Shown piece by piece: positions 3,588 through 10,502 of a DNA stretch of 10,502 nt. The stretch is from Bryobacterales bacterium. Its GTDB lineage: Bacteria; Acidobacteriota; Terriglobia; Bryobacterales; Bryobacteraceae. The notes beneath the pieces are model-generated. The model did no database searches. It saw only the letters and a program-made list of their open reading frames with translations, and was not told the DNA's origin. The stretch is from the NCBI GenBank assembly GCA_003164075.1, contig PLRZ01000644.1, forward strand, positions 1-10,502. Reading direction: 5' to 3'. Within the stretch, counting starts at the first letter, position 1. Each line of letters opens with the position of its first letter. A program made the position numbers and the translations under genes.

Positions 3588-6068
3588 GTGGCATCAGGGA
3601 ACTGGCGTTATGCTCTGTGGGGCGGCCTCCTGCTGATTTCCGCGTCCGGGACCGCCCATCCCGGCGGTACGACGGAACCGGGGTTGCGCGCACAGTTGGA
3701 GGTCCTGAACCGGGAACTGGCGCGGGCGGCTTCTTTTTCTCCCGGACCGGCCCAATTTGCGGACCTGCTCCGTACCCGTGCCCAATTGTTGGTGGAATTG
3801 ATGGATGTGGATCCATTCCAGGCCGGTGAGTTGAGTTTGCCCCCGGAGGTGGTGGCGCGGGCCCGCCGGATCGGCGCCGGCCTGGCGGTGGAGCAGAGCG
3901 GGGAATGGACGGGCACGCTCGAAACGGCCGTGGCGGACGACACGGCGCACGGGCGCAGCCGGAGCGAGTGGTTCCTGTGGGCCGGCGGCCAGCGGCTTCA
4001 GTTGCATTTCGGCTATACGCCGCATGAACGTGCCGGCGCAACGGTGAAAGTGAACGGATTGACGGTTGCCGGGCATGTCGCCGTTTCCGGACTGGCTTCC
4101 TCGGCGGAGAGGCCGGCGGTGCAATGCGTCCAGCAGTGTACTACTACCGGGCCGCAGAACATTGCGGTTCTGATGCTGACCTCGCCATCCTACCCGTCTC
4201 TGCCCGCGGGCTATTCGGCGGCGAGTTTGCAGGAGGCCTTTTTCGGAAGCCCGTCGGATGCCAGGAACACCGACTCGCTGAACGGCTACTGGAAGGAAAT
4301 GTCGTATGGCCAGACTAGCGCCACCGGGCAGGTGTTCGGTCCGTTCGCTCTCGGCCAGGATTACACCTGCGACCAAACCTCTCAGATCGAAACGGCGGCG
4401 ATCGCTGCCGCCGACGCCACCGTCGATTTCAGTCAATTCACCCGCATCGCGCTGTTTTTTCCGGTTGGGGCCTGCTCCAGCTACAGCGGTTTGGGTAGCG
4501 TCGGCTGCTGGACCGTCACGTCTCCCAGTAAGGGGCTCTTGCCGGCCTCGGTGGGCTGGTTTCCCGCGGTCCCCGGGGGTTCCTCCAATACAGCGCTGAT
4601 CTCGCATGAACTGGGACACGCCCTTGGCCTGAACCATTCCAGTAGCGATGTTTACGACGGCGCCGCGCTGGGCCCGATCGGCTCGCCCGGCGCCCTCGCC
4701 GAATATGGCGACCCTTTCTCGGTGATGGGATTTTGCAGCACCTCGGTACCCGGTCAATACACCGCGGAACATAAGAGTCTTCTGCTGAAATGGCTGCTTC
4801 CCGGCGATTATGTGGAGGTCACCGGCGCGGGAACCTATCAGCTCAAACCGTATGAAGCCACGGCGAATCCGCGGGCCCTTCGCGTGCTGCGCGATGCTGC
4901 CAGCGGTGCGTGGCTGTGGCTCGAATACCGCCAGCCGCTGGGGGACATCGATAGCTTGCTGGTGGGGTGGGGAGGCAACCTTTTTTCGGGCGCCCTCATC
5001 CACTACGAAGATCCCACGCTCGATCCGGAGCATAGCTACCTGCTGGACTTCACGCCGGGTTCGGGGAACGTTCTCGATGCCGCGCTGGCTGCCGGCTCGT
5101 CCTGGTCGGACCCGTATTCGTTGGTGACGCTGTCAGTGGGCAGCGCCAACGGGGATGGCCTGGTGGTGAATGTCAACTACGACCGGCCGTGCGCCTCGCT
5201 GCAATTTGCGTCGACCGTTTTCTCCGCATTGGCCAACAACGGCTCGGTCGCCATCACGGCCCCGCCGTCGTGCGCCTGGACGGCTTCCACCGGCGCCGGT
5301 TGGATTCATCTGTCGGGCGCCACCTCGGGCCAGGGAAACGGTACGGTCGCGTTTGCGGTGGATCCCAATTCCACCGCCGTTCAGCGCAATAGCTATCTCA
5401 CGGTCGCCCGCCAGAGTACCCCGGTTGTGCAAACCGGCGGTATCCTTTCGATTTTGAGTGTGAGCCCGGGTTTTGGCGCCGGCGCCGCCGGCCAGTTCAC
5501 GTTCCAGCTTAGCGATCAAAACGGTTACGGCGACATCGCCGGTCTGTTGGTGGACTTCACCAACTCGCCGGATTGCATGGTGGAAGCGACCAAAGCGGCC
5601 GGCATCGCGCTCATGGGCGATACCGGTGTGTGGTTGGGGCCGATTCCCATGGGTGTGCCGGGGCAGACGCTGTCGAATAGCATCTGCTCGGTCTCCTCGG
5701 GAAGTTCGTTCACCGGGTCGGGCGGCCAGTTGCAGGCGACTCTCCAAATGAAGTTCTCCGCCGCGTTTGCCGGTTCTCATCGCATCACCGCGGAGGCGTG
5801 GGCCTCCGCCGGTGTCGACACCGGAACCGTGCCGTTGGGGACCTGGAGCGTTCCGGCGCTGTCGGTGGCGGCATCGGGATTCAGCCCTTGCGACGTCAAC
5901 CAGGATGGGAGTATGAACGTAGGCGACGTCCAGTTTGTCATCAATCCGGCATTGGGAGTATCCGCATCCCTATCGGCCCTCGATCTGAACCAGGACGGGG
6001 TGGTGAACGTTGTGGACGTCCAGACCGTAATAAACGCAGTCCTGGGGCCGGGCTGTTTGGCCAAGTGA
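3588..6068 (+). CDS. Secreted metzincin protease (M11/gametolysin-like) with BACON-like module and C-terminal dockerin
   Basis: An 826-residue exported zinc protease. The GTG start at 3588 gives a basic N-terminus and hydrophobic core (residues 9-20) ending near SGTA, a plausible signal peptide; an in-frame stop lies at 3534. The zinc motif is SHELGHALGLNH, with His340, Glu341, His344 and His350. Thirty residues later, EYGDPFSVMG gives the metzincin Met-turn at Met380, and the YGD-x3-VMG form is closest to peptidase family M11 (gametolysin). Residues about 535-615 resemble a BACON module (CAWTASTGAGWIHLSG), often linked to binding of carbohydrate or protein. Residues about 618-755 form a beta-rich module of unknown role. 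Residues 768-820 are a type I dockerin with two calcium loops, DVNQDGSMNVGD and DLNQDGVVNVVD. The dockerin implies docking onto a cohesin partner, and a cohesin gene is the next gene downstream. The exact peptidase family is less certain than the metzincin assignment. Confidence 0.88.
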   Translation: MASGNWRYALWGGLLLISASGTAHPGGTTEPGLRAQLEVLNRELARAASFSPGPAQFADLLRTRAQLLVELMDVDPFQAGELSLPPEVVARARRIGAGLAVEQSGEWTGTLETAVADDTAHGRSRSEWFLWAGGQRLQLHFGYTPHERAGATVKVNGLTVAGHVAVSGLASSAERPAVQCVQQCTTTGPQNIAVLMLTSPSYPSLPAGYSAASLQEAFFGSPSDARNTDSLNGYWKEMSYGQTSATGQVFGPFALGQDYTCDQTSQIETAAIAAADATVDFSQFTRIALFFPVGACSSYSGLGSVGCWTVTSPSKGLLPASVGWFPAVPGGSSNTALISHELGHALGLNHSSSDVYDGAALGPIGSPGALAEYGDPFSVMGFCSTSVPGQYTAEHKSLLLKWLLPGDYVEVTGAGTYQLKPYEATANPRALRVLRDAASGAWLWLEYRQPLGDIDSLLVGWGGNLFSGALIHYEDPTLDPEHSYLLDFTPGSGNVLDAALAAGSSWSDPYSLVTLSVGSANGDGLVVNVNYDRPCASLQFASTVFSALANNGSVAITAPPSCAWTASTGAGWIHLSGATSGQGNGTVAFAVDPNSTAVQRNSYLTVARQSTPVVQTGGILSILSVSPGFGAGAAGQFTFQLSDQNGYGDIAGLLVDFTNSPDCMVEATKAAGIALMGDTGVWLGPIPMGVPGQTLSNSICSVSSGSSFTGSGGQLQATLQMKFSAAFAGSHRITAEAWASAGVDTGTVPLGTWSVPALSVAASGFSPCDVNQDGSMNVGDVQFVINPALGVSASLSALDLNQDGVVNVVDVQTVINAVLGPGCLAK

Positions 6069-6080
6069 GGGCCGCCCGGA

Positions 6081-6122
6081 GAGTTTCTGTCGCGAAACTC
6101 ACGTCAACTGGCAAGGAACGCT
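6081..6122 (+). repeat. Second, partial copy of the rpiA-side repeat
   Basis: GTTTCTGTCGCGAAACTCAC, at 6083-6102, closely matches the reverse complement of the right end of the element near rpiA (about 2309-2327), and similarity continues through TGGCAAG to about 6122. This copy lacks the long inverted repeat. Internally GAGTTTC (6081-6087) pairs with GAAACTC (6094-6100) around a six-base loop, forming a small hairpin 12 bases after the protease stop. No T-run follows, so a classical terminator is unlikely. Confidence 0.55.
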
Positions 6123-6172
6123 TGCTGAATGGGTGCTTTTCCGTTTTGGGGCAATAGGGGGGCGGATTGCGT

Positions 6173-6293
6173 GTGGGGCAGCCAATCTTGGCTGCAGCCG
6201 GCTTTCAGCCGGCTCTTTCGGGACACGAACGCTTGCCGACCGCCCGGAAGGCCGCCTGGAAAGGCGGCTGCAAGGCAAGATTGCCTGCCCCAC
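6173..6293. repeat. 121-bp GC-rich palindromic intergenic repeat
   Basis: The outer arms at 6173-6190 and 6276-6293 are reverse complements at 17 of 18 positions (GTGGGGCAG...CAATCTTG). Inside, CAGCCGGCT occurs twice (6195-6203 and 6206-6214). GCCGCCT (6251-6257) pairs with AGGCGGC (6262-6268) around GGAA. The whole block is a compound hairpin resembling REP- or MITE-type repeats. Short open frames across it on both strands look spurious. Together with the repeat at 6081-6122 it fills most of the 312-base gap after the protease gene. Confidence 0.6.
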
Positions 6294-6340
6294 CAGCCTA
6301 TTTCGCTACTTCCCCCAATCCGGTTAAGCACTGCCTTGGC

Positions 6341-6380
6341 TTGGTCCGCGTCGCGCAGTTAAGGGTATAGTGAGTAGGAC
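6341..6380 (+). promoter_or_regulatory. Possible promoter of the cohesin gene
   Basis: TATAGT at 6366-6371 resembles a -10 box; TTGGTC at 6341-6346 could be a weak -35 with a long 19-base spacer. If used, transcription would start only a few bases before the ATG at 6381, giving a very short leader containing AGTAGGA. The same arrangement, TATAGT exactly 15 bases before an ATG, recurs at 7286-7301 in front of the decayed cohesin copy, which supports a conserved role. Confidence 0.35.
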
Positions 6381-6836
6381 ATGTTTCTGAAATGTGCGAT
6401 TGCGCTGGCGATGTTCGCCTGGGCGGGGAATGCCGCGGAATTGATCCTTGATGGGGGCTCTTTAGCCCCAGGCAGGCCATGTACGCTCAACGTGAGGGTG
6501 GCCGTCGGCCAGGACGTTCCAACGGGGATTCAATTCGATCTGGAATATGACGCCGCCTCCCTGGATATCAGGGTCGAAGCGGGGCCGGCAGCGAAACAGG
6601 CGTCGAAGAACCTGCAATCGGCGAAGATTCGCGACGGCAAGCTGAGGGTACTGATCATCGGGTTTAACCGGAACGCGATCTCCGACGGCGTGCTGGCCCT
6701 CGTCCACGTGTCTTATAAAGGACAGGATGCCGGCAAGACTTTACCGATTCATGTAACGGCCTCATCCGGGACCAACGAGAAGGCCCAATCGGTGGCCGTG
6801 ACGGCGAAGGATGGCAGCGTGACGGTGGAAAAGTGA
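6381..6836 (+). CDS. Secreted single-domain cohesin-like protein
   Basis: A 151-residue protein with a signal peptide (hydrophobic residues 5-16, likely cut after GNA or NAA near residue 19) followed by a single cohesin-like domain filling the rest. Visible cohesin marks are the early strand CTLNVRVAVGQ, the phrase GIQFDLEYDAASLDI that forms the first sheet, the stretch LRVLIIGFNRNAISDGVLALVHV, and a final strand VAVTAKDGSVTVE. Cohesins bind dockerins in calcium-dependent extracellular complexes; the upstream protease ends in a dockerin, so direct pairing is a reasonable inference. No sortase motif, membrane anchor, S-layer module or second cohesin is present, so it is not a conventional scaffoldin. 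It could instead be a cohesin-fold protein with another binding role. A decayed paralog lies downstream. Confidence 0.72.
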   Translation: MFLKCAIALAMFAWAGNAAELILDGGSLAPGRPCTLNVRVAVGQDVPTGIQFDLEYDAASLDIRVEAGPAAKQASKNLQSAKIRDGKLRVLIIGFNRNAISDGVLALVHVSYKGQDAGKTLPIHVTASSGTNEKAQSVAVTAKDGSVTVEK

Positions 6837-7265
6837 ACCGCCTCTCAATCGGCCAAGCCTATCGTCCTGATAAGCAGTTCCGTAGAACGGGGATCGCTGC
6901 GAAGAGGGTCCATCATGGGAGGCGCCTTTGGGAATAAGGTCCGCCGCTCGAAACGCATGGCCAGGTGTGGATTCGGAAGCTCTCCACTGACTGCTTTCCG
7001 GTGGTTGCCGCCACAGGGTTCGTCTGGTACTGGGTAGTCCAGGCTCTCCGATCTGGAGGAACGGGCCGTGATCGAATACCTGCTCCGCTTCCGCGAAAAG
7101 TCCGGTCGCAGAGTTACGGACGGCCAGCCACCTGCGACTCCGAATGAGAAACTTGCCACCCCAATGGCACTAGATATCTGCCGGATTGCTCTTGATGTGG
7201 ACAAGGAGAGGTTCACGATCCCGGATATCCGGGTTGTCATGCAAAATAGCCCAAAAATTGGCTGG
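6837..7265. other. Gene-poor interval between the cohesin gene and its decayed copy
   Basis: No recognisable gene, repeat or RNA was found here apart from a doubtful short frame at 7068-7268. Open frames on both strands (for example a 131-codon minus-strand frame at 6845-7240) are rich in Arg, Ser and Pro and match no family I know. The interval may be debris from a duplication or an older gene, as the decayed cohesin copy lies immediately downstream. Confidence 0.4.
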
Positions 7266-7268
7266 TAG
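7068..7268 (+). CDS. Doubtful short ORF with a good ribosome site
   Basis: A GTG start at 7068 is preceded by GGAGG at 7055-7059 with eight bases between, which is well placed for translation. The 66-residue product begins with a helical, charged stretch (VIEYLLRFREKSGRR) and continues into an unremarkable sequence ending SPKIGW. I do not recognise it. The same frame is open back to a TAG at 7035, and the bases covering the GGAGG themselves translate to a coding-like LEERA, so this could be the tail of a decayed larger gene rather than a functional small one. Confidence 0.22.
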   Translation: MIEYLLRFREKSGRRVTDGQPPATPNEKLATPMALDICRIALDVDKERFTIPDIRVVMQNSPKIGW

Positions 7269-7300
7269 GCGCAATAGTTCAGAGCTATAGTAAGGAGGAT

Positions 7301-7659
7301 ATGCTCAGGCCAACAGTGATCGCGCCAGCGGTGTACGCTGCCGTGGCGGACGCTTTGGGACTGAACACGGAGCGAAGAATTCCGCTGCCGGGACCTGCCT
7401 CGACCGGGACTCCGCTCAATCGAATCGTGACGCTGGATCCGGGGATGGCCGGGGCTTCGAAGCGGCTGGGATTCATGCCTCCGATAAAAAGATCAAGCAA
7501 AATAGTGGACCATCAGGTATTATATCCCCTTAGACATGTCGGCGATTGTCCGCGTCGAACAACGGACGAGACGCTGGTGACACCGTCCCTATCCGGATCG
7601 CGCCCAAGTCCGGGGCGATGGCCGTGGCGGGGAAGGATGGTAGTATAAGGATCGAAATC
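7301..7659 (+). pseudogene. Decayed paralog of the cohesin-like gene
   Basis: Three parts match the intact gene at 6381-6836. The 18 bases up to and including the ATG at 7301 agree at 15 positions with those ending at 6383, including TATAGT at the same distance. The first residues (ML-x4-IAPAVYAA) resemble the intact signal peptide (MF-x4-IALAMFAW). Near the end, GRDAGDTVPIRI and later KDGSIRIE match GQDAGKTLPIHV and KDGSVTVE. The tail lies in a different frame from the start; a preceding stretch SAIVRV (frame of 7536) matches LALVHV, so a frameshift falls near 7555-7566. About five residues are missing between the two tail matches. The middle is barely recognisable. The final codons run in frame into the next gene without a stop. 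Confidence 0.45.
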
Positions 7660-7674
7660 GGAGGAAGCGCAGTG
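7660..7674 (+). promoter_or_regulatory. Ribosome binding site fixing the start at 7672
   Basis: GGAGG at 7660-7664 stands seven bases before GTG at 7672, and the codons that follow (VKQLSWMVLLLGTAMGLTAQ) form a clear signal peptide. The frame is open further upstream to a TTG at 7546, but those extra 42 codons match the tail of the decayed cohesin copy, so the long form is an artefact of a fused remnant. Confidence 0.8.
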
Positions 7675-9039
7675 AAGCAATTAAGTTGGATGGTTTTATT
7701 GCTGGGCACGGCGATGGGCCTGACAGCGCAAACGTTGTCGTTCGGCGAGATCACGCTGGTTACGCCGGCGACAACTCCGCCGACCTATACTGTGAACGTC
7801 ATATTGACGACTTCGGGAACGGCTGCCGGGGCGCAGTTTGACCTCAATTACGATCCGACGCAACTCACCGTCACCGTCGGACTCGGCAGTTCTGCCACCG
7901 CGGTCTCGAAGGAACTCAGCACCATTTGTCTGGGGCAGGCTCTGCCGGGATGCTCGCAGCCGGCGCAAAACAACCCGTCCACCAAGGCGACGATAAACAA
8001 CGGACCCGGATGGCGCGCCATCATCGCCGGTGTGAGTCTGGCCGACAGTTCTACCGGGACGGTTGGGGCCGGCGGCCCAACCCTCATCGCCGACGGCCCG
8101 GTGGCGACTTTGACCATCCAGCCTACTTCCACTGGGGCGCCGACGGGCACGACGGGCCAAAAGATAACGTTCTTGAATCAGGTGGGGACCACCGCCGGCA
8201 ATGGCCAAACGGCGCCCTCGCAGATTACCTTGGCTATCGGCGCCGGCTCCAGCGATCCGGGCGCGACCGGAGTATTGGACATGTACAAGATCTATCAGGC
8301 GGGCGATACCTTCCCTTACACTGGCGACAACCTGCCAAATTTCGGAAATGGTTTGGACGTCAACGACGCGATTCAGGTTCTGTTTGCCGTCGACAGTGTT
8401 AAGGGCTATACAAAGCCGGCGGCCTGCACCGATCGCTTCGACGCTATGGATAGCTTCCCGCAGGACACCCCGACAGTCCGCGGCGGGAACCAGGCGATAG
8501 ACGTTAACGACGCGATCGTCACGCTATTCCGAGTGGACAGCGTCAGCGGATATAACACTCACCCTGTACGGACCAGCCTGGGGTATAACGGCGTCTGCCC
8601 GACCAAGACTACCGCCAACGTCAGGACTCCGAACCGCCAGCCGATCTCCAGTCCCCCGGTCCAGGGCACGCTGGTATTGGGGAATGCCGAGCCGTCTGCG
8701 AATGGACAGGTTCGGGTTCCGGTATACCTGGAGGCTGGGCGCGATCTGGCACGCCTGGCGTTCACATTCGGGCTCGGTGATGAGCAGTCGCAGTTGCACT
8801 TTCAGGCCGCGCCAGGTATCGCCTCCCCCTTTGTAGTGGACAGCGTGAGGGGGGTAGTGGTGGCGGCTTGGTTCGGCGGCTTGGACGTTATCGCCGGACA
8901 GCGACCCCTGCTTGGGTATGTCGTGGGGCCGTCCGGATTCGCGTCGAACCTGAAGGTTTTCGGTATGTCGGCCGCCGGCTTGAATGATCATGAATTAGTG
9001 GGCCTGGACGTTTCGGGCGCGCCGTTAGCGCAGCAGTAG
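7672..9039 (+). CDS. Secreted protein joining a cohesin-like domain, a tandem dockerin-like module and a C-terminal beta domain
   Basis: A 455-residue exported protein. The signal peptide is residues 1-20 (cut near LTAQ). Residues about 21-190 are cohesin-like: VNVILTTSGTAAGAQFDLNYD, then WRAIIAGVSLADSS and a closing ITFLNQVG strand. Residues about 200-300 hold two dockerin-like repeats with DVNDAI at 229-234 and 277-282 and DSV-x-GY at 241-246 and 289-294, both 48 residues apart. Acidic residues before each (DTFPYTGD, DAMDSFPQD) could bind calcium. These are not canonical dockerin loops. Residues about 330-448 form a further beta-rich domain, perhaps another cohesin-like fold. A protein with both binding partners could link into chains or bind itself; this is inference. 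No catalytic domain or anchor is visible. The next gene starts 46 bases later and may be co-transcribed. Confidence 0.7.
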   Translation: MKQLSWMVLLLGTAMGLTAQTLSFGEITLVTPATTPPTYTVNVILTTSGTAAGAQFDLNYDPTQLTVTVGLGSSATAVSKELSTICLGQALPGCSQPAQNNPSTKATINNGPGWRAIIAGVSLADSSTGTVGAGGPTLIADGPVATLTIQPTSTGAPTGTTGQKITFLNQVGTTAGNGQTAPSQITLAIGAGSSDPGATGVLDMYKIYQAGDTFPYTGDNLPNFGNGLDVNDAIQVLFAVDSVKGYTKPAACTDRFDAMDSFPQDTPTVRGGNQAIDVNDAIVTLFRVDSVSGYNTHPVRTSLGYNGVCPTKTTANVRTPNRQPISSPPVQGTLVLGNAEPSANGQVRVPVYLEAGRDLARLAFTFGLGDEQSQLHFQAAPGIASPFVVDSVRGVVVAAWFGGLDVIAGQRPLLGYVVGPSGFASNLKVFGMSAAGLNDHELVGLDVSGAPLAQQ

Positions 9040-9072
9040 GCGCCAGCCCTTGGGGTTAGCAAGCGGAATCTC

Positions 9073-9088
9073 GGAGGAAATTATAATG
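9073..9088 (+). promoter_or_regulatory. Ribosome binding site of the terminal gene
   Basis: GGAGG at 9073-9077 precedes the ATG at 9086 by eight bases and is the strongest and best-placed Shine-Dalgarno in the window. It supports a real start here although the frame has no stop before the window ends. Confidence 0.8.
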
Positions 9089-10502
9089 TCTTTGAACGGC
9101 TTTTTCTGCAAGTTAGGGCTTCTGACCGCCGTATTAGCAGCCGCCCCGCTTTGGGCGCAGGACACGATCAGTGTGAATTGCCCCTCCTCTGCTGCGGTTA
9201 ACGGCACCACCGTCACGCAGTATAAGAATAAACAAGGAACTGTAGTCGGAACCCAGGTGACCTGTGCGGTCACCGCGAATTTCGGGTCGGATCTGTCCGA
9301 CACGTTCAGCATCTCCTTCGGGGTTACGCCAAACGCTGCGGCACCGACTCCAACGGCAAGCATAGTTTTCACGGACAACTCGTTGTCATGTAACGCCGGA
9401 AATGGTTGCGGCGCGTCCGGACCTGGTCTCTCGGGCGTCCAGGACGCTGCGGCCTGGGGGCCTGGCCTCATCCCAGCGCAGACCGGGAATTCGATCGTCG
9501 GTACTTTTGCATTCATTATTCCTCTCGCTGCAGTCGGCGGACAGTCCTACACGGTCGCCCTGAGCGGTGGCAACTATTCCTACCAAGGTAGCCTGGGCAT
9601 AAACTTTGCCGTTACCGGCACATCGCAAACCGTCACCCTCCCCACTGTCCTCGCGATCAATTCCCCAGGAGCGGGCACGCTTCCCGTACAGGCGACGGTC
9701 GGCAGGCCGTACTCCCAGCCCTTCACCGCAAATGGAGGCAACTCTATCTACTCCTGGTCGGAGACCGGTACCTTGCCATCCGGGTTGAGCATCTCGACCA
9801 ACGCCGGCAACGCCTATAGCGGCGCCATCAGCGGTACGGTGGGCAGTTCGGTGACTGCCGGCACCTTTAGCAATATTAGTGTAAAGGTCACAGACACCGA
9901 AACCACCCCCGAGACGGCTACCCAGATTTACAGCCTTGTGGTCAACCCCGTGGTATCGAATATCACTCCCACAACTCTGACGCCGGCCACCCAAAGCGTA
10001 TCTTACACGTCGCAGAACATCACCGTAACGGGAGGCACGGGACCGTACACGTGGTCCACGACAACGAATCTGGGGAATTACGGGCTGGCTCTTAACACCG
10101 GCCCGACCGCCGCTGCCGTAACAACGATTACCGGTACACCGAATCAGGCCGTCAGCAGCGGCCTCACTATCCCCCTGACGGTTACGGACTTCAACGGATC
10201 CAGCACAAGCGCGAACCTTACCCTCGTAATCGGCGGGCCTCTGGCACTTGCCCCCGCGAACAGCAGCTCCCTGGCGATAGGAACGCGGGGCTATCCTTAC
10301 ACCACCGGTTCGGCTATAGCGGCCTCGGGAGGCACACAGGGCTCGGGCTACATCTATTCCGTGAACGGCGGCCTGCCTGCCGGGCTGGGTATCAGTTCGA
10401 CCACCGGCGCGATCACCGGTACGCCGACCGTCAACGGCACCTTCAGCAACGTTCAGGTGACGGTAACCGACCACGCCACCCCCACCGCGGCCTCCGTAAC
10501 CA
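9086..10502 (+). CDS. Large secreted protein with repeated Ig-like (He_PIG-type) modules, 3' partial
   Basis: The frame opened by ATG at 9086 has no stop up to the window end, giving 472 residues of a longer protein. Residues 1-25 are a signal peptide (LGLLTAVLAAAPLWAQ). Residues about 26-190 are a Ser/Thr/Gly-rich beta domain with Cys32, Cys60, Cys102 and Cys108, which may form disulfides outside the cell. Then come three similar modules, about 192-287, 288-382 and 384-472. Each has a YSW, YTW or YIYSV strand, and the first and third have LPSGLSIS or LPAGLGIS followed by GxIxGT, the hallmark of the putative-Ig He_PIG family. The second module is more diverged. Such proteins are usually adhesins or surface or extracellular binding proteins. 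No enzyme domain is seen in this part. Ligand unknown. The long antisense frame at 9386-10474 is a shadow. Confidence 0.78.
   Translation, partial: MSLNGFFCKLGLLTAVLAAAPLWAQDTISVNCPSSAAVNGTTVTQYKNKQGTVVGTQVTCAVTANFGSDLSDTFSISFGVTPNAAAPTPTASIVFTDNSLSCNAGNGCGASGPGLSGVQDAAAWGPGLIPAQTGNSIVGTFAFIIPLAAVGGQSYTVALSGGNYSYQGSLGINFAVTGTSQTVTLPTVLAINSPGAGTLPVQATVGRPYSQPFTANGGNSIYSWSETGTLPSGLSISTNAGNAYSGAISGTVGSSVTAGTFSNISVKVTDTETTPETATQIYSLVVNPVVSNITPTTLTPATQSVSYTSQNITVTGGTGPYTWSTTTNLGNYGLALNTGPTAAAVTTITGTPNQAVSSGLTIPLTVTDFNGSSTSANLTLVIGGPLALAPANSSSLAIGTRGYPYTTGSAIAASGGTQGSGYIYSVNGGLPAGLGISSTTGAITGTPTVNGTFSNVQVTVTDHATPTAASVT

Follow-up and report, generated by a model that had tools for sequence, protein, structure and literature searches.

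The window, i.e., the whole 10,502-nucleotide (nt) stretch of DNA analyzed here (contig PLRZ01000644.1 of the Bryobacterales assembly GCA_003164075.1), carries a protease gene ending in a dockerin, followed by a gene for a free-standing (solo) cohesin, a cohesin remnant, a gene for a cohesin/dockerin-like hybrid and an immunoglobulin (Ig)-like repeat gene. We read this row as a noncellulosomal cohesin-dockerin locus, in which a portable, Cys-bracketed dockerin tag would be bound by the neighboring solo cohesin as its calcium-dependent partner, the hybrid would act as a linker, and the protease would be an exchangeable cargo; we give this reading a probability of about 0.5. The arrangement of a dockerin beside a cohesin is recurrent in the order, and its cargo changes from locus to locus. 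The original prediction, which was made from the letters of the window, placed five elements in a row on one strand, and all five indeed lie on the plus strand. The features are as follows.

3588..6068, plus strand: M6-like metzincin protease with a BACON-like region (below the cut-off) and a C-terminal Cys-bracketed type I dockerin
5892..6056, plus strand: dockerin of the protease (PF00404 match, residues 769-819)
6173..6293, no strand assigned: inverted repeat in the protease-cohesin gap, with 21-nt arms that are 90% complementary
6381..6836, plus strand: single-cohesin protein of 151 amino acids (aa), from PF00963, a structural model, PDB matches and a family list
7555..7656, plus strand: ~34 codons left from the 3' end of what was a second solo cohesin gene, from tblastn and from blastn with the 6381 gene
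7672..9039, plus strand: 455-aa hybrid with a GTG start at 7672, as in the homologues P0230 and P0231; its parts are a cohesin (nt 7723-8289), a dockerin-like middle (8290-8607) and a putative second cohesin fold (8659-9024)
9086..10502, plus strand: protein with Ig-like repeats (He_PIG; PF05345, E-value of 5.2e-17), truncated where the window ends

The protease possesses the metzincin motif HELGHALGLNH at residue 340 and SVMG, presumably the Met-turn, at residue 378. As the metzincin motif is present yet the score against the M6 metalloprotease profile TIGR03296 (E-value of 4e-13, 49.9 bits) falls under the cut-off of 110.8 bits, we label this protein metzincin-type and M6-like. Its tail was matched by the type I dockerin profile PF00404 with an E-value of 3.5e-9 and 37.1 bits (cut-off, 22.9 bits). 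Both calcium loops are intact (DVNQDGSMNVGD at residues 769-780 and DLNQDGVVNVVD at residues 799-810), and they are bracketed by Cys 768 and Cys 823, a pair kept in all of the 15 rows chosen for the dockerin alignment A3. The dockerin-tagged metzincin protease that had been predicted is thus real. It is the sole protease in the window, in which no second enzyme was found.

The 6381 protein is a type I cohesin by both profile and fold. PF00963 matched it with an E-value of 9e-9 and 36.1 bits (cut-off, 24.1 bits), and the PDB matches of its AlphaFold2 model (predicted local distance difference test score, pLDDT, of 90) were led by type I cohesins, the best of which was 5nrm_A (E-value of 8.3e-12, TM of 0.78). 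The noncellulosomal cohesin of Archaeoglobus fulgidus (2xdh) and an autonomous cohesin of Ruminococcus flavefaciens (4n2o) were among the lower matches. Its N-terminus appeared signal-like by eye. The list of its homologues comprised 109 proteins, the top one being 99% identical, and 99 of the 109 were 138-175 aa in length. A free single-cohesin protein, as predicted, is therefore encoded in the window. The decayed cohesin copy announced along with it is present as well, but only as the last ~34 codons, and 17 of the 40 positions aligned to the 6381 cohesin by local tblastn were identical. From the solo cohesin to this remnant (6837-7554), one frame (7301, 115 aa) was scanned and gave no Pfam match.

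The prediction of a cohesin/dockerin-like hybrid held in part. The N-terminus (residues 18-206) is a type I cohesin by profile and fold, and the C-terminus (residues 330-451) appears to take a cohesin fold in the predicted model, the two cohesins being unlike each other. On the other hand, the start is the GTG at 7672 and not 7546, and the middle (residues 207-312), of which the loops hold insertions, gave no PF00404 match; as hhalign of this part to dockerins covered 10 columns with a probability of 1.8, we dropped the idea of a true dockerin there. The last gene is Ig-like, as had been stated, and its product is a candidate adhesin. Several homologues with named sources were of Bryobacteraceae or Solibacter, and others were of Terriglobales or assigned just to Acidobacteriota; the host thus most probably belongs to the Bryobacteraceae. 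We also tried to trace the locus through reference genomes by means of the hybrid, and rejected it as a marker since it matched mostly the end module of giant proteins, with weaker matches in Verrucomicrobia and Omnitrophota; the order-wide search added mainly matches to its cohesin part. The four strongest genome loci were of Bryobacterales, Acidobacteriia and Terriglobia metagenome-assembled genomes (MAGs). In Verrucomicrobia MAGs and one of Omnitrophota (L025; L013-L026 altogether), large proteins, often encoded by tandem genes, weakly matched the dockerin-like module of the hybrid.

The proposed locus is supported by the intact dockerin of the protease, with a well-modeled cohesin gene 312 bp downstream, and by the relatives. 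Among 237 genomes of the family, the solo-cohesin profile (A2) found 141 cohesin places in 54 genomes, and PF00404 found 113 dockerin places in 79 genomes. Genomes with both were 29 against 18 expected (Fisher's exact test, p = 5e-4). Nineteen cohesin-dockerin pairs lay within 5 kb, nine in a single frame and 10 in different frames; the latter were distributed among 7 genomes, with three loci contributing two each, whereas ~0.28 were expected. In the window, a genuine cohesin lies beside a genuine dockerin, as claimed at the outset, and this arrangement is recurrent in the order. The gene order is also found elsewhere, namely a dockerin-ended gene followed by a solo cohesin gene and a cohesin-starting gene, in five other genomes (G017, G011, G010, G019 and G266), the last of which came from a search of the phylum with A2 (7 of the 396 genomes matched at an E-value of 1e-8). 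The original prediction named conservation of the neighborhood in relatives as a check on it, and it is in this form, with a different cargo and not as a protease neighborhood, that the gene order is conserved. In the first four genomes, the dockerin-ended gene is a frame of 972 to 4154 aa (one of them cut by the contig end) closing in a cohesin and a dockerin, while that in G266 encodes a YncE-propeller protein with CxxCH motifs; the cargo in this gene order is accordingly a giant repeat protein or a CxxCH propeller protein.

The nine single-frame pairs bring in the first of the alternatives, a self-assembling surface fiber, in which chains bearing both a cohesin and a dockerin would be joined head to tail and capped or branched by the solo cohesin, and the protease would be incidental or serve for trimming. 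A 206-aa protein (L170:600-1217) that consists of one cohesin and one Cys-bracketed dockerin with little else would suit such a fiber, as would the layout of the hybrid (cohesin, dockerin-like module, cohesin) and the giant repeat proteins closed by relatives of its middle and end. However, a cohesin and a dockerin adjacent in one chain may pair inside that chain, and the hybrid middle, lacking a PF00404 match, is dockerin-like at most. We consider the fiber unlikely, albeit the best placed of the alternatives.

The exchange of cargo is also seen in the dockerin class of the window. The A3 profile, built from 15 chosen rows of which 14 were from relatives, found 100 places in 61 of the 257 genomes of the order, some of these places being its own seeds; a genome with any match possessed 1-6 dockerins by A3 and 1-5 by PF00404. 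The Pfam scans took in 16 of the 21 loci from L182 to L202, with pieces of up to 576 aa; more distant domains were therefore missed, and 8 of these 16 pieces had no match to a family of informative function. The cargo identified comprised GH44-matching proteins (three loci, in each of which a cohesin gene diverges from the cargo gene), and proteins with CBM96, the C-terminal domain of heparinase II (HepII_C), GHL15 and a beta-helix, as well as, below the cut-off, a PL4-like domain and M10/M11-like proteases. At L185 and L187, the other domain comes after the dockerin. The absence of any glycoside hydrolase, which the original prediction noted, is correct for the window, where no plant-cell-wall enzyme with a dockerin was found, but does not extend to the dockerin class, as the three GH44-matching proteins in relatives bear it.

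The claim that was not supported is that of a cluster built around the protease. Protease matches were counted at an E-value of 1e-30 in the 257 genomes of the order, which gave 67 places in 54 genomes, and none of the 67 had an A2 cohesin (A2 matches being from the 237 genomes of the family) within 20 kb. When the cohesins and dockerins on the same contig as a protease were picked out by eye, three protease places (two in G147 and one in G242) had a PF00963 cohesin at a distance of 4-15 kb, of a separate 800-aa class. The dockerin itself recurs on the protease. It is carried at two of the 67 places (G106:C516 and G180:C61; 43% identity), the latter dockerin being caught by A3 and absent from the PF00404 list, and by 8 of 120 listed protease homologues, namely the top four, at 54-99% identity, and four of lesser length, at 40-43%. 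A ninth, weak match (P0051) lacks such a tail, and no cohesin was found in any of the 120. A 66%-identical orthologue (G118:C107) diverges after residue 763, where its contig ends, so that a later dockerin is possible. By the length of the longest contig, which is no more than a proxy, 13 of 69 hybrid clusters coincided with solo-cohesin clusters and none with protease clusters, and the same proxy gave one coincidence of cohesin and protease (2719), from different sources. The protease thus recurs as a cargo, but no cohesin recurs as its neighbor, and we dropped it as a fixed core of the locus because the A2 cohesin neighborhoods do not track it, though its dockerin recurs.

These counts weigh on the second alternative, a dedicated extracellular proteolytic complex in which the protease would assemble with the solo cohesin and the hybrid. 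The three genes adjoin in the window, and the dockerins on the protease homologues and at the two genome places just mentioned also speak in its favor. Nevertheless, no A2 cohesin accompanied the protease at any of the 67 places, although draft genomes hide neighbors, the same gene order bears other cargo elsewhere, and the window holds one protease and no second enzyme. Such a complex is improbable, and ranks behind the fiber.

On our best reading, a general acidobacterial docking kit, unlike a multi-cohesin scaffoldin, carries the protease as a passenger among several. The domains, the gene order, the recurrence of a dockerin beside a cohesin and the exchange of cargo are observed, and we infer secretion, binding, its dependence on calcium and an attachment point of the complex. 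The dockerin would tag secreted cargo, and a solo cohesin from the same locus, secreted or bound to the envelope, would catch the tagged cargo with calcium. The cohesin/dockerin-like/cohesin hybrid may serve as a small linker between two partners. In this way, the protease would be held near the cell or near the Ig-repeat protein rather than diffusing away. Since dockerin peptidases and noncellulosomal modules are already known, the interest of the locus lies more in the plan of a cargo with its own receptor than in the protease. For the role of cohesins and dockerins outside cellulosomes, a two-gene unit of tagged cargo and its own cohesin offers matched pairs for binding tests. It also suggests a means by which Gram-negative soil bacteria may keep secreted enzymes on the surface, and would give protein engineering further cohesin-dockerin pairs that are orthogonal.

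A second dockerin class, comprising the top PF00404 scores, shows the pairing with a solo cohesin at most of its loci. A solo cohesin directly adjoined the dockerin at 16 of the 20 best loci (L072-L091 and L146-L165). The solo-cohesin profile made for this class had 5 seeds chosen for a PEP-containing tail, three of them inside the 20 loci; with the three set aside, a solo cohesin adjoined the dockerin at 13 of 17 loci. The four misses were L075, in which a divergent solo cohesin lies further off (L149), L081, which is at a contig end, L087 and L090. The PEP motif was found in 13 of the 16 solo cohesins by pattern and in 15 by eye, the last one being cut by the contig end; two PEP-like tails scored against PF07589 were both under the cut-off. 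Exosortase (PF09721) was detected in all of the 20 genomes asked, which represent both dockerin classes, and thus permits anchoring without discriminating between the classes.

A third cohesin class was met in the PF00963 search, which matched 206 of the 257 genomes of the order, with many frames of 760-920 aa. In three loci (L027, L028 and L029, one each in G001-G003), a C-terminal cohesin is located behind a type II/III secretin (PF00263), and the secretin identity applies to these three members of the class. Dockerins were not commoner in the genomes with this class (39 of 109 listed) than overall (101 of 257). We accordingly dropped the secretin-fused cohesin as a dockerin receptor, and such a receptor at the export channel, though possible, has no support.

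Taking the classes together, we tentatively suggest a docking system of this acidobacterial order that has not been reported. In this proposal, which we hold less firmly than that for the window, solo cohesins, many of them anchored by exosortase via a PEP-CTERM-like tail, would be dedicated receptors for the adjoining dockerin protein, and the cargo would be swapped between loci (protease, GH44, lyase-like, propeller or giant Ig protein). The window would represent an anchor-free branch, with the cohesin/dockerin-like/cohesin linker replacing a scaffoldin, and the secretin-fused cohesin of three related genomes could offer another docking site, on the export channel itself. In the open-licence literature, we found no treatment of PEP-CTERM, dockerin and cohesin together, none of a secretin with a cohesin domain and type II secretion, and none of an autonomous cohesin in combination with Ruminococcus flavefaciens.

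Several observations weigh against the docking locus proposed for the window. No anchor was seen on the 6381 cohesin, of which the chain stops with the last strand (...DGSVTVEK), and none of its 109 listed relatives has a PEP motif near the end, so that it does not belong with the PEP-CTERM proteins. An anchorless single cohesin had been taken as a departure from the cellulosome plan; the lack of a visible anchor stands, but related loci use solo cohesins too, mostly with PEP-CTERM-like tails. The sequence gives no sign of cotranscription of the protease and the cohesin, of which the genes are separated by 312 bp, and a simple protease-cohesin operon appears disfavored because the inverted repeat at 6173-6293 stands between them. 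A scan for promoters and terminators yielded nothing exceeding shuffled sequence. Furthermore, a listed cohesin was found within 3 kb and in another frame at just 16 of the 100 A3 places (15 genomes), and seven further places had one in the same frame only, the PF00963 cohesins in this count being 15 chosen among the matches listed. The count for PF00404 took the best 35 of the 113 places and two lower ones, added since a cohesin had been seen nearby; a listed cohesin lay within 3 kb at 7 of the best 35. Likewise, 5 of 30 A3 loci had a cohesin in another frame inside flanks of ~1.5 kb, a figure that leaves aside seven loci in L173-L202 with a cohesin in the same frame or more distant, and most had no adjoining partner.

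The last alternative, in which no docking takes place, the dockerin-type module being a calcium-dependent stabilizing or sorting tail and the cohesins plain secreted beta-sandwich domains, would account for the many A3 dockerins without an adjoining cohesin, for a Cys pair invariant in the 15 chosen rows as in a folded tail, and for the indifference of the secretin-fused class to dockerins, but is the least probable of all given that dockerin-beside-cohesin pairs and genomes holding both exceed expectation, and given the solo cohesins adjoining the second dockerin class, and the two calcium loops kept in the protease.

The binding of cohesin to dockerin is established in cellulosomes, and Peer and colleagues reportedly described noncellulosomal cohesin and dockerin modules in 2009. 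The accessible part of PMC9012536 gives the binding as established for archaeal versions too, and describes proteins of anaerobic methanotrophic (ANME) archaea that combine one dockerin with several cohesins. The window resembles the noncellulosomal modules of ANME and A. fulgidus in that cohesin and dockerin occur together in a microbe lacking a cellulosome, and in the fold match to 2xdh. It differs in that a solo cohesin gene recurs beside the dockerin cargo, the cargo is swapped, and the Cys pair of the dockerin is conserved. In R. flavefaciens FD-1, 16 of 222 tabled dockerin proteins were of the peptidase type, 10 of them being transglutaminase-like (PMC2930009, in its accessible part). 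The likeness to the cellulosome of this species lies in the type I-like cohesin fold, the dockerins on peptidase-type modules and the single-cohesin proteins (4n2o and 4wkz). Unlike in a cellulosome, a multi-cohesin scaffoldin is absent from the window, and the two cohesins of the hybrid are dissimilar, so that the hybrid does not qualify as one; two-cohesin frames were found in relatives (G008:C199, G181:C49 and G320:C251). According to the accessible part of PMC8542988, Ca. Stygibacter (Cloacimonadota) has S8/S53 and C25 peptidases with C-terminal dockerins, inferred to degrade polypeptides, and a cellulosome-like complex with a 3,755-aa scaffoldin of tandem cohesins. The C-terminal dockerin on a peptidase is common to Stygibacter and the window, in which solo and paired cohesins take the place of the tandem-cohesin scaffoldin.

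Apart from the locus, a perfect inverted repeat (arms of 36 nt, loop of 23 nt) lies at 2204-2298, upstream of the end of rpiA.

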